Shown: positions 19,185-60,048 of the stretch, piece by piece
Layout of the letters: each line of letters begins with the position of its first letter
Position numbering within the stretch: the first letter of the stretch is position 1
Assembly: GCF_001488575.1 (NCBI RefSeq)
Contig: NZ_LN831302.1
Location: 1,736,001 to 1,800,000, forward strand
Direction of reading: 5' to 3'
Source: Halobacterium hubeiense
GTDB taxonomy: Archaea > Halobacteriota > Halobacteria > Halobacteriales > Halobacteriaceae
DNA length: 64,000 bases
Translations under genes and position numbers: made by a program
Notes under the pieces: model-generated
Database searches by the model: none
Seen by the model: only the letters and a program-made list of their open reading frames with translations
What the model was told of the DNA's origin: nothing

Positions 19185-19282
19185 TGGCGAACGGTCACGC
19201 CGGCACGACAAGAACGTTCGGCACGAAACAGCCAGCATCCGGCGACCGAGTGGTCCGAAGGACCCGGAAGGTCGCCGGTTCA

Positions 19283-19305
19283 CCGCGCGAGCGAAGCGAG
19301 CGCGG
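19283..19305 (+). repeat. Constant-loop hairpin, loop GAGCGAAGCGA
   Basis: Stem CCGCGC/GCGCGG (six pairs), loop GAGCGAAGCGA at 19289-19299. Between the 91-aa gene and gcvH. Confidence 0.6.
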
Positions 19306-19352
19306 GCGCCGAGGACCTCCGTAGTGGGGTCCGACGGCGCTTTTGGCCGAGC

Positions 19353-36114: not shown

Positions 36115-36340
36115 TAGCGACACGGTTCTGGGGCGACGACCGAAAGGCTATCGCTCTACCCAGCACGCCGAAATACGCGCTACGGCGGCGGTTAAGCGCG
36201 CTCTAGGACGGTTCGAGCGCGTGAAAATCCTCGAGTGCCGTGTCCGACTCCGGGCGACGCATCGCGGCGACAGTGGGGCTCGCGGGTCGTTCCTCCCCGC
36301 TCGCGATAACGTGGGCTCGCTTCGGTCGGCCCCGCGGCTC

Positions 36341-36361
36341 GCGGGTCGCTTCGCTCCCCGC
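36341..36361 (-). repeat. Constant-loop hairpin, loop GAGCGAAGCGA
   Basis: Stem GCGGG/CCCGC. The plus-strand loop TCGCTTCGCTC (36346-36356) is the reverse complement of GAGCGAAGCGA. In the trkA-rfcL gap. Confidence 0.55.
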
Positions 36362-36370
36362 TCGCGAAAA

Positions 36371-36395
36371 CGTGCTCTCCCTGCGGTCGAGCACG
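36371..36395 (-). repeat. Constant-loop hairpin, loop GACCGCAGGGA
   Basis: Stem CGTGCTC/GAGCACG (seven pairs). Minus-strand loop GACCGCAGGGA, the X=C, X'=G version. In the trkA-rfcL gap. Confidence 0.6.
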
Positions 36396-36437
36396 CTCTC
36401 CGCAACCACTAAACGCGGCTCGCGCCTTCGTCCGGTA

Positions 36438-37877
36438 ATGACCGACTGGACGGAGAAGTACCGCCCGTCGTCGCTGTCGGAGGTCCGCGGGAACAACAAG
36501 GCCCGCGACGCGCTCCGGGAGTGGGCGGACACGTGGGAGGACCACCGGGAGGCCGTCATCCTCCACGGGAGTCCGGGCGTCGGGAAGACGTCGGCGGCGC
36601 ACGCGCTGGCGGCCGACGAGGGCTGGGACGTCGTGGAGCTGAACGCCTCGGACCAGCGCACCGCGTCGGTCGTCGAGCGCGTCGCCGGCGAGGCCGCGAA
36701 GTCCGGGACGCTCGGCGGCGGGACGGGCGGCCGCAAGCTCGTCGTGATGGACGAGGCGGACAACCTCCACGGGAACGTCGACCGCGGCGGCTCCGCGGCC
36801 ATCACGGACCTCGTGAAGGAGTCCACGCAGCCCATCGTCCTCATCGCCAACGAGTTCTACGACATGAGCAACAGCCTGCGGAACGCCTGCCAAGACATCG
36901 AGTTCCGGGACGTCTCCAAGCGCTCTATCGTCCCCGTGCTGCGGGACATCTGCCGGCGCGAGGGCATCGAGTACGACGAGGAAGCACTGGAAGCCATCGC
37001 CGAGCAGAACTCCGGGGACCTGCGGTCGGCGGTCAACGACCTGCAGGCGCTGGCGGAGACCGAGGAGAAACTCACCACCGACGACGTGGTGATGGGCGAG
37101 CGCGACCGCACGGAGGGCGTCTTCGACTTCCTCGACGACCTCATCAAGAACCTCGGCGCGCAGGACGCACTCGAAGCCGCCTACGACGTCGACGAGACGC
37201 CCGACGACCTCGTCAACTGGGTGGAGGACAACGTCCCGAAGGACTACTACGGCGACGAGCTCGCGGACGCCTACGAGTTCCTCTCGAACGCGGACGTCTG
37301 GCTCGGGCGGGTGCGCGCGACGCAGAACTACTCGTACTGGCGGTACGCCACCGACAACATCGCGGCGGGCGTGGCGGCGTCCCGCCGGCACGACCACGGC
37401 GGCTGGACGCGCTACGGGCCGCCGTCGTACTGGCGGAAGCTCGGGTCCTCGCGGGCGACCCGGAACAAGCGCGACTACGTCGCGCGGAAGGTCGCGGAGG
37501 TCAGCGGCACCAGCATGTCGACGGCGCGGCGCAAGGTCGTGCCGTTCCTCGCGACGATGACCCACCACTGCAAGAACCGCGAGCTGACGGTGGCGATGAC
37601 GGCGGCCTACGACCTCGACGCCGAGCACGTCTCGTTCGTCACGGGCTCCGGGGAGACGACGAACAAGGTCCAGTCCATCGTCGAAGACGCCGAACAGCTG
37701 CGCTCGGAGCGCGCCGTCGAGCACTCCGGCGGCGCCTTCGAGGGCGAGGCGAGCGCGAGCTTCGACGAGGACGAGTCCGGCGAGGACGCAGCCAGCGAGA
37801 CCGAAGACGAATCCGAGAACGAGCAAGAGGACGAGGACAGCGACGACGACCAGGCGGGCCTGGACGACTTCTTCTGA
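36438..37877 (+). CDS. rfcL: Replication factor C large subunit
   Basis: The 479-residue large subunit of the archaeal clamp loader, which opens PCNA rings and loads them on primed DNA. The AAA+ Walker A is HGSPGVGKTS (residues 43-52), Walker B is KLVVMDEADN, and the arginine-rich sensor region follows. After a lysine- and tyrosine-rich collar domain comes a long acidic tail ending in QAGLDDFF, which matches the PCNA-interacting (PIP) box Q-x-x-L-x-x-F-F. ATG at 36438 fixes the family start TDWTEKYRP. Confidence 0.96.
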   Translation: MTDWTEKYRPSSLSEVRGNNKARDALREWADTWEDHREAVILHGSPGVGKTSAAHALAADEGWDVVELNASDQRTASVVERVAGEAAKSGTLGGGTGGRKLVVMDEADNLHGNVDRGGSAAITDLVKESTQPIVLIANEFYDMSNSLRNACQDIEFRDVSKRSIVPVLRDICRREGIEYDEEALEAIAEQNSGDLRSAVNDLQALAETEEKLTTDDVVMGERDRTEGVFDFLDDLIKNLGAQDALEAAYDVDETPDDLVNWVEDNVPKDYYGDELADAYEFLSNADVWLGRVRATQNYSYWRYATDNIAAGVAASRRHDHGGWTRYGPPSYWRKLGSSRATRNKRDYVARKVAEVSGTSMSTARRKVVPFLATMTHHCKNRELTVAMTAAYDLDAEHVSFVTGSGETTNKVQSIVEDAEQLRSERAVEHSGGAFEGEASASFDEDESGEDAASETEDESENEQEDEDSDDDQAGLDDFF

Positions 37878-41223: not shown

Positions 41224-42060
41224 TTACGGCGCGCCAGCGGCGTCCGCGCCGGGCGAACGTGCCGAACGGGCCGCGAGGACGAACAGCGCGGCGACGACGG
41301 CGGTCAGCGCGTAGTAGGTGAGCTGGACAGTCGCGGAGAACTGGACGACGCCGGTGCCGATGAGAATCTGGGCGGTGACGGCGGCGAGCGTGGCGACCAT
41401 CGCCTGCGCGGCGCGGCGGTCGCCGTGGCGGCGCGCCCACACGAACGCGGCGAGCGCGGCGGTGAACACGACCAGTTCGAGCGCGTGGTGAATCAGCTGG
41501 ACGCGCGTCCCGTACACCGCGAAGACGGTGTTCCGGGAGAACACCAGCGCGAGCGGGAGCACCGCGAGCCCGGAGATGGCGGCGGTGCGGACGCGCCCGA
41601 GGCCGACGCCGACGAGTTCGCGCATCCGGAGCGTCGTGTAGACGAGCGTCCCGAAGATGGCGAGCGCGGCGAGGTGGTGGACGGCCTGCGTGATGGGCAT
41701 GTACCCCCACGGGACGAGGCCGCTGAACGTGACGGTGGTGCCGCCGAGAATCACCTGAATCGGCAACAGGACCACAGCGAGCACGCCGCCGACTTTGACG
41801 TCGCGCTGGTCGAAGTTGCGCCACGAGACGGCGCCGGTGCCGAGGATGAAGAAGCCGACGACCATCGCGAACCCGCGGTGGAACTGCTCGACGAAGTCGT
41901 GAATCTGGAGCCCCAGCGGGAGCAGTTGGCCGTTGCAGTCCGGCCACTGCAGCCCGCAGGTCGCGCCCGACCCGGAGACGGCGGTGTACTCGCCGACGAG
42001 GATGAGCGCGAACGTCAGGGCGGTCGTCACGGCCGCGAGTTGGTAGGAGCGGCGGTCCAT
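41224..42060 (-). CDS. ctaA: Heme A synthase (COX15/CtaA)
   Basis: A 278-residue membrane protein with eight predicted helices that oxidises the methyl of heme O to the formyl of heme A for terminal oxidases. It shows VGEYTAVSGSGATCGLQWPD near the N-terminus with the conserved acidic and cysteine residues, and heme-coordinating histidines in IHDFVEQFHRGFAMVVG, ITQAVHHLAALAIFG and QLIHHALELVVFTA. The start MDRRSYQLAAVTTAL is family-typical. It is a single gene; heme O synthase is not in the window. Confidence 0.9.
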   Translation of the reverse strand: MDRRSYQLAAVTTALTFALILVGEYTAVSGSGATCGLQWPDCNGQLLPLGLQIHDFVEQFHRGFAMVVGFFILGTGAVSWRNFDQRDVKVGGVLAVVLLPIQVILGGTTVTFSGLVPWGYMPITQAVHHLAALAIFGTLVYTTLRMRELVGVGLGRVRTAAISGLAVLPLALVFSRNTVFAVYGTRVQLIHHALELVVFTAALAAFVWARRHGDRRAAQAMVATLAAVTAQILIGTGVVQFSATVQLTYYALTAVVAALFVLAARSARSPGADAAGAP

Positions 42061-42104
42061 GACTCGAATTTTTGGGTCGGTGTACGTAGGCGTGTCGTAT
42101 TGAG

Positions 42105-42129
42105 CGTGCCCGAGCGTAGCGAGGGCACG
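42105..42129 (+). repeat. Constant-loop hairpin, loop GAGCGTAGCGA
   Basis: Stem CGTGCCC/GGGCACG (seven pairs), loop at 42112-42122. Between ctaA and maeB. Confidence 0.6.
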
Positions 42130-42138
42130 TTAACGCGA

Positions 42139-42159
42139 ACGCGGAGCGAAGCGATGCGT
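42139..42159 (+). repeat. Constant-loop hairpin, loop GAGCGAAGCGA
   Basis: Stem ACGCG/TGCGT with one G-T pair, loop at 42144-42154. Ten bases after the previous hairpin. Confidence 0.5.
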
Positions 42160-42348
42160 GAGCGTGGCCGACCAATAGGCGGGCACGTTAACGCGAGCAA
42201 GGAGCGCGGAATGTCGAGCGGCGACCGTCGTGAGCTGGGAACACCGCTCGAATCCCGTCCCCGCACAGCCGACGGAGTTCGTCGATTGACGTAACAACAT
42301 TCGACGCGTTGGGGTAGGTTTTTGGCCGTCGCCGGAGCAGGGGACGAC

Positions 42349-44601
<2,253 letters not shown>

Positions 44602-44819
44602 GCGAACGCTAACTACTCTCCTTCGGGCCCTCTTCGATAGGCGACGACGGTACCGTACTCGGCGGAGCGGAGCGACGCCGAGTTTCACCGAGCGCGAACA
44701 GCGAGGCGCTACGCGCCTCGAAGGCGAACGGCGAGTGAAACGAGCCGTGAGCGGCGTGAGCGCTCGGGCCGACGACTGAGGGACGGGACGGACCGAAGGA
44801 GGAGTGCTTTTTCACTAAG
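44602..44819. other. maeB-rnhA intergenic region
   Basis: About 220 bases (270 with the 3' element) between convergent genes, with no gene. It contains the hairpin at 44657, a GAGGCGC-ta-GCGCCTC palindrome at about 44703-44720, and a gaccgaaggag sequence near 44791 resembling a degraded constant loop. Confidence 0.45.
44657..44683 (+). repeat. Constant-loop hairpin, loop GAGCGGAGCGA
   Basis: Stem ACTCGGCG/CGCCGAGT (eight pairs), loop at 44665-44675. Between maeB and rnhA. Confidence 0.6.
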
Positions 44820-48989: not shown

Positions 48990-49268
48990 GGAGGAACCGG
49001 CCACAATCGTTATTTGTGCCGCCGCGCCCGCCTCGTGAGCGCTCCCGAGACGTCGGGAGCGCTCGCTGGCCGCTCGGAGGCGTGCAGACGCATAGACCGC
49101 GGGCTGTCGGAGTCGTCGAAGTCAGAGAAGTGCCCGGGGAGGGTTTTGAACCACGGAAGCGCGTCGCGCTTCCTGCGCTTCGCTCACTGCGTTCGCGCAG
49201 AGCCTACGGGTTCGCCACCCTCCGGACGTTCACACGACGGACTCCTCACTACGTTCGTCGTTGCGTCG
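48990..49268. other. Gene-free flank of tRNA-Met with repeats
   Basis: No gene on either strand. It contains a copy of the tRNA-Met 3' end, a perfect GGAAGCGC-gt-style hairpin at 49155-49173 (GGAAGCGC/GCGCTTCC), and two loop-like sequences TCACTGCGTTC (49184-49194) and TCACTACGTTC (49246-49256), which match the minus-strand form GAACGNAGTGA of the constant-loop hairpin family but with displaced stems. Frames here are low-complexity shadows. Confidence 0.5.
49125..49152 (-). repeat. 28-bp duplicate of the tRNA-Met 3' end (possible att remnant)
   Basis: Positions 49125-49152 are identical to 49269-49296, which cover the discriminator, the 3' acceptor strand, T loop and part of the T stem of tRNA-Met plus six flanking bases. 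The copies are in direct orientation and 144 bases apart. Tyrosine integrases recombine into exactly this part of tRNA genes, leaving such duplications. Here the interval is too short for an element with genes, so it would be a deletion remnant. Confidence 0.7.
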
Positions 49269-49274
49269 GAGAAG

Positions 49275-49433
49275 TGCCCGGGGAGGGTTTTGAACCCTCG
49301 ATCTCCGCATGTCCCAGGTTCGAGGCTCGGCGGGCCTCGCGGACATGCTGAGCATCCACGTGGCGAGTGGGATGCCGCACCGAAGCTCGGAACCCTATGA
49401 GTGCGGCGCTATGACCAGCTAAGCCACCCGGGC
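49275..49433 (-). tRNA. Elongator tRNA-Met (CAU) with 85-nt intron
   Basis: Exon 1 is 49396-49433 (38 nt, GCCCGGG acceptor strand, D arm, anticodon stem and CTCATA), exon 2 is 49275-49310 (36 nt, from A38 and TGCGG through the T arm GAGGGTTCAAAACCCTC to CCCGGGC and discriminator A). Acceptor and anticodon stems pair fully (CCGCA/TGCGG). The anticodon CAU with loop CTCATAA gives methionine. The intron 49311-49395 interrupts at the canonical 37/38 site, as in other haloarchaeal elongator tRNA-Met genes. CCA is not encoded. It needs tRNA-splicing endonuclease at a bulge-helix-bulge. Confidence 0.93.
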
Positions 49434-59729: not shown

Positions 59730-59827
59730 CTTAACTCTGCCGGGGTACGAACCCCCACGCGGGTACCGATTCGAAACCTTCAACTATACCCCCGGACTAC
59801 GCTGGAATGCGTTCGAAGACCGCCGCG

Positions 59828-59902
59828 GGTTGGTGGTCTAGTCAGGCTATGACACCTCCTTGACATGGAGGAGGTCGGCGGTTCAAATCCGCCCCAACCC
59901 AC
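59828..59902 (+). tRNA. tRNA-Val (GAC)
   Basis: A 75-base gene with GGGTTGG acceptor strand and CCAACCC partner, discriminator A. The D arm, anticodon stem CCTCC/GGAGG with loop TTGACAT (anticodon GAC, valine) and T arm GGCGGTTCAAATCCGCC are complete. No intron, CCA not encoded. TATA-like caactatacc is at about 59781-59790, 40 bases upstream. Fragments of its 3' half occur just downstream. Confidence 0.95.
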
Positions 59903-59964
59903 TTCTACTGACGTAACGACCGCGAGAGACCTCCGTGTATCTCGCGTCGTCTCAGTTGTGTGGC

Positions 59965-60048
59965 GTTGGCGGATTTGAACCAGACGAGTCGCAGCGTCCG
60001 AGCGGAGCGAGGACGAACGTCTCGGCGAGGTTCACAATCCGCCCCAAC
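59965..60048 (+). repeat. Inverted pair of tRNA-Val 3' fragments flanking a hairpin
   Basis: GTTGGCGGATTTGAACC (59965-59981) is the reverse complement of a tRNA-Val T-arm/acceptor segment. GGTTCACAATCCGCCCCAAC (60029-60048) is a direct, slightly degenerate copy of tRNA-Val bases from 59881. Between them is the constant-loop hairpin at 59995-60015 with extended imperfect arms. The whole could fold as a long cruciform or RNA hairpin. Low-GC DNA with a nuclease gene begins right after. Confidence 0.65.
59995..60015 (+). repeat. Constant-loop hairpin, loop GAGCGGAGCGA
   Basis: Stem CGTCC/GGACG, loop at 60000-60010. Sits inside the inverted pair of tRNA-Val fragments. Confidence 0.6.

Follow-up and report, generated by a model that had tools for sequence, protein, structure and literature searches.

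A Widespread Family of Hairpins With Variable Stems and a Constant Folded Core in Haloarchaeal Genomes

Introduction

What kind of element keeps the loop of a hairpin constant while its stem is free to change? This question is raised by seven hairpins scattered between the genes of the window, the whole 64-kb stretch of Halobacterium DNA analyzed here, positions 1736001-1800000 of contig C1, whose source genome encodes an RfcL protein with 93% identity to those of its closest named relatives, Halobacterium sp. KA-4 and CBA1126. A preliminary description had given these hairpins unrelated stems of 5-8 bp and a constant 11-nt loop in which two positions, X and X', covary, and had proposed a structure selected at the level of RNA or cruciform DNA. 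They look like copies of a widespread structural element that probably acts in folded form, as DNA or RNA, and that is undescribed as far as the open literature shows. A structural code shared by practically all haloarchaea, each genome having dozens to hundreds of copies, would appear to have gone unreported. If it is folded as DNA, it would be, to our knowledge, the first cellular, genome-wide use of an ultra-stable GNA minihairpin, and what DNA shape and supercoiling do at archaeal promoters would become directly testable. If it is folded as RNA, there would be many unannotated transcripts sharing one module.

Hairpins of the Window

All seven hairpins are present (19283-19305, 36341-36361, 36371-36395, 42105-42129, 42139-42159, 44657-44683 and 59995-60015), as are two looser sites with an A/T pair at X/X', GAACGCAGTGA at 49184-49194 and GAACGTAGTGA at 49246-49256, both on the minus strand. 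The bare pattern GANCGNAGNGA is near chance in such GC-rich DNA, with 10 occurrences in the window against 6.4 expected. When complementary X/X' and at least four of five stem pairs are demanded, the window holds 8 hairpins against a mean of 0.045 and a maximum of 1 in 200 Markov resamplings. Every copy in the window is intergenic, as had been claimed, and so are 71 of the 78 full hairpins across 2 Mb of the source genome, by codon-usage gene calls made here whose start codons may be off. The sequence surveyed in full comprised these 2 Mb and 0.4 Mb of a second genome, G011.

Two groups of hairpins form arrays at promoters, where we name each hairpin by its GA strand, the one that reads GA on either side of the core. 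Upstream of ctaA (start codon at 42060, minus strand), the end unit of the array is a unit A hairpin on the plus strand, CGTGCCC-GA-GC-GTA-GC-GA-GGGCACG (42105-42129), which differs from the orthologous unit of G011 by compensatory changes and whose GA strand is the ctaA template strand. Next to it are a unit B hairpin, CGAACGCGGAGCGAAGCGATGCGTGAG (42136-42162, plus strand), in which 5 bp separate two GA/GA tandem mismatches and the closing pair is G-T, and what appears from its sequence to be a decayed third unit resembling unit A, gcgtggccgaccaataggcgggcacgtt (42163-42191, plus strand). The ctaA core promoter region lies between the start codon and the array (42061-42104, minus strand); its putative BRE/TATA was placed from orthologous upstream regions, and gacacgcMtacgtac is conserved there in relatives. 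Upstream of rfcL (start at 36438, plus strand), the template strand is again the GA strand of the end unit, a unit A hairpin on the minus strand, CGTGCTC-GA-CC-GCA-GG-GA-GAGCACG (36371-36395). It is accompanied on the same strand by a unit B hairpin with two GA/GA tandems, CGAGCGGGGAGCGAAGCGACCCGCGAG (36338-36364), and by a decayed unit A with a C/C mismatch at X/X' (36310-36334), which contains the tenth motif, GACCGAAGCGA, at 36317-36327. The rfcL core promoter, ccgcaaccactaaacgc (36400-36416, plus strand), carries a probable BRE/TATA and is conserved in relatives whether or not they have the array.

The stems are therefore only partly unrelated, since the two units A share the arms CGTG...CACG (36371-36395 and 42105-42129) and the two units B share CGA.CG...CG.GAG (36338-36364 and 42136-42162). 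The preliminary description also needs a correction at 42139-42159, where there are 4 Watson-Crick pairs and the G-T closing pair. Elsewhere in the window, CCGCGC-GAGCGAAGCGA-GCGCGG (19283-19305, plus strand) belongs to a third subfamily, gttcaccgcgc...gcgcggg, whose sites are convergent and 3' of genes. A longer 3'-flank element is conserved around gttcaccgcgc-core-gcgcggg, with a T run after it in some copies (window 19250-19350; source-genome contig C1 at 9076, 126921, 446915, 509346, 898016 and 1815904). The hairpin ACTCGGCG-GAGCGGAGCGA-CGCCGAGT (44657-44683, plus strand) lies in a convergent interval. Positions 42349-44601 encode a malic enzyme fused to a phosphate acetyltransferase-like domain, which is a known type of fusion.

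Architecture of the Core

The 11-nt loop is indeed constant, but it is itself a structure, with two base pairs (X-X' and C-G) between a GA/GA tandem mismatch and a GNA triloop. Tandem GA mismatches are established as sheared pairs in structural work on both DNA and RNA, and those of the hairpins probably adopt the same arrangement. In the X=G class, the centre of the core is the heptamer d(GCGNAGC). Both d(GCGAAGC) and the GNA class have been described as extraordinarily stable minihairpins (PMC10527192, PMC6479982), and nuclease resistance of d(GCGAAGC) is known from the work cited as reference 16 in PMC10527192.

The same architecture emerges from a motif-free survey of 2 Mb of the genome for intergenic hairpins whose stem is 5 bp or longer and is followed by a 2-nt mismatch, two base pairs and a triloop. 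GA/GA accounts for 73 cases, against 3 for the runner-up mismatch pair, and its mirror TC/TC is likewise dominant on the other strand. The triloops of these 73 cases are GAA (18), GCA (17), GGA (12), GTA (11) and others (15), so that 58 are of the GNA type with all four bases at N. The inner closing pair is C-G almost throughout, and tetraloop versions number just 5. Unit B repeats the theme with a second GA/GA 5 bp outward of the core, where 42 of 47 non-paired dinucleotide pairs are GA/GA.

The form with X=T is absent from the source genome because GATC is strongly avoided there (observed/expected 0.22 over positions 1-2000000 of contig C1; CTAG likewise, 0.32). A structural cause for the missing form was dropped, as GATC avoidance accounts for its absence. 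Another genome, G077, uses the GATC form, with 14 copies of GATCGNAGAGAG against 0 in the control.

Covariation and the Folding Strand

The 139 stem-bearing intergenic hairpins have a Watson-Crick X/X' in 134 cases, a G-T in 3 and another combination in 2. Counts summed over 78 haloarchaeal genomes are 1939 for the matched A/T form (reversed-pattern control 43) and 560 for the A-C mismatch form (control 130); this mismatch is rarer than the matched form, and the covariation first noticed in the window extends well beyond it. To the stems we applied a covariation score on 34 distinct units A and 44 distinct units B, gathered by their constant letters with no demand on the other pairing; pairs fixed by those search letters are uninformative in the score. 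Unit A scored 0.342 against a shuffled mean of 0.123, and unit B 0.464 against 0.136; in either case, none of 500 shuffles scored as high, and structures slid out of register scored far below the true one. Aligned promoter hairpins of the source genome and G011 differ mostly by compensating pairs, such as GCGTGCTC..GAGCACGT against GCGTGGCT..AGCCACGT. Such differences could also arise when arrays swap whole units, so not all of them are independent substitutions.

A structure under selection, as had been proposed, is well supported by these data, and the imperfect pairs indicate which strand folds. Among 47 distinct units A and 84 distinct units B from across the class, the GA strand has 46 G-T or T-G cells and 10 A-C or C-A cells (p ~1e-6 in a binomial test that ignores the relatedness of the sequences), with G-T reaching 21% of cells at the pair where it is most frequent. 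Because G-T is tolerated and A-C is not, folding under selection can be assigned to the GA strand as far as the sequences tell. Such an asymmetry would be expected neither from a symmetric cruciform nor from an RNA of the TC strand, and a symmetric cruciform is less likely than the folding of one strand. In predicted RNA folds, the GA strand reaches -15.4 kcal/mol against -13.3 kcal/mol for the other strand.

Distribution Among Haloarchaea

The motif GAACGNAGTGAG is present in 290 of 292 haloarchaeal genomes, typically in a few to about 60 copies and at most in 196, with 0 to 4 in the reversed control. This amounts to an enrichment of about 45-fold over the control, and other members of the phylum have counts close to the control, i.e., background. 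Unit A was found in 14 of 97 genomes (control 0), with most of its copies in Halobacterium, and unit B is more widespread, at 57 of 97 (control 0). One Halobacterium genome, G006, has 2 copies of GAACGNAGTGAG and neither unit, as compared with 20-66 in sister species; this near-lack is a natural loss. In 1.5 Mb of rfcL neighbourhoods from 78 haloarchaeal loci, hairpins were few, and their 19 Watson-Crick against 10 other X/X' weakened the pattern without contradicting it.

Similarity searches of phages and plasmids gave weak or chance matches alone, except for one Halobacterium salinarum plasmid copy, and the matches listed in a pattern scan of viral contigs were mostly taken as chance. The plasmid is pNRC200, where a stretch around ggaagacGAACGGAGTGAgtcttcc (L181 1480-1620), about 400 bp past the 3' end of a TnpB gene, is near-identical to one at position 195424 of contig C1 of the source genome.

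Promoter Arrays in Halobacterium

In Halobacterium, units A and B alternate as A-B-A-B at spacings of about 32 and 29 bp, and in all 16 divergent intervals with multiple hairpins, the array lies on one strand. The promoter arrays begin with a unit A at 46-57 bp from the start codon, its GA strand antisense to the gene. Among 128 hairpins in 2.4 Mb, 33 are antisense and 6 sense at 40-95 bp from a start codon, and none on either strand lies closer than 40 bp. At 17 array ends, where BRE/TATA was assigned by eye, the unit A arm stops directly upstream of a TATA-like box that precedes the start codon by about 27-30 bp, a spacing as in leaderless genes. The anchored genes are housekeeping genes, including rfcL, ctaA and those for L37Ae, L21e, SRP19, a RIO kinase, RqcH/NEMF, PspA and methylmalonyl-CoA mutase; their names were given by eye from the proteins, with rfcL and ctaA backed by Pfam.

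Although the rfcL core promoter is kept across the genus, its array is present, different or absent depending on the species. The array is missing in four congeners (loci L103, L104, L107 and L108) and is therefore not essential to the rfcL promoter. Upstream of ctaA in G011 (L134 2367-2946), a 77-bp A-B unit is repeated in tandem in 7.5 perfect copies, a recent expansion. At another rfcL locus, L109, the core promoter segment GCTCCGCAACCACYAAACGC occurs on either flank of the hairpin array, resembling a target duplication; L109 is the sole such case among the arrays compared. Promoter anchoring is demonstrated for Halobacterium, whereas in other families the motif is common and its placement looked less fixed.

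tRNA-Linked and Convergent Sites

Hairpins 3' of tRNA genes mostly run in the sense direction, and in convergent intervals, 15 are sense and 13 antisense to the nearer gene, i.e., without polarity. Template-strand use is therefore not universal. An intrinsic terminator was considered and rejected, as sense polarity near an upstream stop is not seen and the convergent sites divide 15 to 13.

Two window sites on the minus strand accompany an intron-containing tRNA-Met (49274-49433, minus strand), which a standard tRNA scan missed and the intron option detected. The core GAACGTAGTGA (49246-49256) lies 3' of this gene and has a second GA/GA one base pair out, and for this reason we count it as a member of the family. 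The core GAACGCAGTGA (49184-49194) has a weak stem and is flanked by the tRNA-Met 3' end on one side and a duplicate of this end on the other. On the plus strand, CGTCC-GAGCGGAGCGA-GGACG (59995-60015) caps a longer palindrome built of copies of the tRNA-Val 3' end. Such duplications recur: at several tRNA genes, a copy of the 3' end lies 84-122 bp downstream (window 59827-60045; contig C1 at 378116, 714427, 1382682 and 1785184), and some are palindromic with a GNA hairpin at the tip. From their sequences, these copies look like a separate tRNA-linked element or an integration scar.

Possible Roles of the Hairpins

The best reading of these data, to which we give a probability of roughly 0.42, is a DNA hairpin on the template strand of promoters, as in phage N4. 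Folding as DNA is suggested by three considerations: at promoter arrays, the GA strand runs opposite to the gene at which the array is anchored and, where the interval is tandem, to the genes on both sides; the caps are GNA triloops and not GNRA tetraloops; and phage N4 offers a worked precedent. The GA strand of each unit would be selected to fold alone, its sheared GA/GA and GNA cap making an exceptionally stable hairpin. When the upstream DNA becomes single-stranded or is under negative supercoiling, the template strand would snap into a row of hairpins that marks or holds open the upstream edge of the promoter, by absorbing torsion, by excluding other proteins or through a putative protein that reads the constant core. 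Stems would be free to vary, as pairing and core alone would matter. The wider claim, that a class-wide haloarchaeal system of single-strand DNA hairpins, template-anchored at Halobacterium promoters, serves as a torsion-sensitive upstream promoter element read by a putative protein or by the transcription machinery, and so as the cell's own equivalent of the hairpin promoters of N4, we hold to be unlikely.

The GA strand might instead act as RNA, with the arrays lying within non-coding or antisense transcripts, the tRNA-linked and convergent copies in 3' trailers, and the GA/GA plus GNA hairpin as a binding or stability module. We consider this somewhat doubtful, yet the high tolerance of G-U keeps it a serious reading: the GA strand has many G-U and few A-C pairs (46:10; up to 21% at one pair), the same strand has the stronger predicted fold, and sites downstream of tRNA genes are mostly sense. 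An RNA is harder to reconcile with promoter arrays whose GA strand opposes the anchored gene, and in tandem intervals both of the flanking genes, with the near-absence of GNRA tetraloops, the usual RNA cap, or with the unpolarised convergent intervals. Rfam offers no matching family either; in Rfam 15, the sole match at the gathering threshold is a tRNA, the rfcL array has none up to E=1, and 19231-19290 gives PyrR209 alone, below threshold at E 0.064 and half its gathering score. Rather more improbable is a by-product without cell function, in which palindromes arise frequently and only those with stable, nuclease-resistant tips persist. That the tip also sits on unrelated palindromes such as the tRNA-end copies would fit, as would the resistance of d(GCGAAGC) reported in reference 16 of PMC10527192; the second conserved GA/GA of unit B, the fixed distance to the core promoter and the strand polarity would be left unexplained.

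The dispersed and arrayed copies, their quick turnover between species, the tandem expansion in L134 (7.5 perfect 77-bp copies) and the flanking duplications of the core promoter (L109) and of tRNA 3' ends would all suit a mobile repeat of the REP/BIME kind, spread by a Y1 transposase (RAYT or IS200-type) that recognizes single-stranded hairpins. Such an origin is more improbable still, given that Y1_Tnp (PF01797) is missing in 6 of 13 Halobacterium genomes, and that in G002, G004, G007 and G012, all free of it, one motif variant reaches 20 to 41 copies; moreover, the stems are variable and not conserved, the GTAG tag is missing and the promoter positions are fixed. Very improbable, and the least so far credited, is a palindromic operator (e.g., AACGTG...CACGC) bound as duplex by a transcription factor upstream of BRE. 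The location directly upstream of BRE is what such a site would have, and unit A does not vary in its outer arms, though these also served as the search key; an operator would be expected to keep the sequence of its arms, and here the inner bases covary and the GA/GA mismatches are constant.

Comparison With Known Systems

In the open-access literature, the scope of our search, no haloarchaeal paper contains the motif strings or describes the element. Within haloarchaeal systems, Halovirus HF2 has intergenic repeats of 58 and 29 bp at promoters (PMC8707807). These are AT-rich and include the promoter, whereas the hairpins are GC-rich and lie upstream of it; as AT-rich promoters, the HF2 repeats were considered and rejected. 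Haloferax volcanii has hairpins near RNA 3' ends, one of which was tested as a partial terminator, with no constant core reported (PMC7237163). The promoter arrays differ from these in lying opposite the strand of the neighbouring transcript, and the convergent sites in being unpolarised.

The REP/BIME elements of bacteria are likewise dispersed extragenic hairpins in many copies, single or arrayed, but REPs have family-specific stems and a GTAG or CGTC tag, the GTAG types occurring with a Y1 transposase (PMC2817692, PMC3733652). In contrast, the haloarchaeal hairpins combine variable stems with a constant core, and no transposase tracks the copies. Membership in the REP/RAYT family was thus rejected, as stems change by compensation around a constant core and a cognate Y1 transposase is not in every carrier. 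The d(GCGNAGC) minihairpins are a match at another level, with an identical heptamer at the centre of the X=G class; they are known as synthetic DNA in vitro, and the haloarchaeal hairpins are a natural, genome-wide element with covariation (PMC10527192, PMC6479982).

The promoter hairpins of the N4 virion RNA polymerase are like the haloarchaeal ones in their 3-nt GNA-type loop and variable paired stem, and like the promoter arrays in lying on the template strand upstream of the start site (PMC4496689). For N4, the GNA-type loop with a sheared G-A, supercoil-driven extrusion and activity on the template strand are established; extrusion occurs at negative supercoiling below physiological density, and stem bases that merely pair vary freely (PMC4496689). 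The haloarchaeal hairpins likewise have a C-G closed GNA triloop and keep pairing while stem bases vary, and their GA strand is the template at promoter arrays, though not at tRNA or convergent sites. The N4 hairpin is read by the phage polymerase (PMC4496689), whereas the haloarchaeal reader is putative, and the haloarchaeal hairpins further differ in their GA/GA tandems below the tip, in their arrangement in arrays and in their site upstream of an archaeal BRE/TATA.
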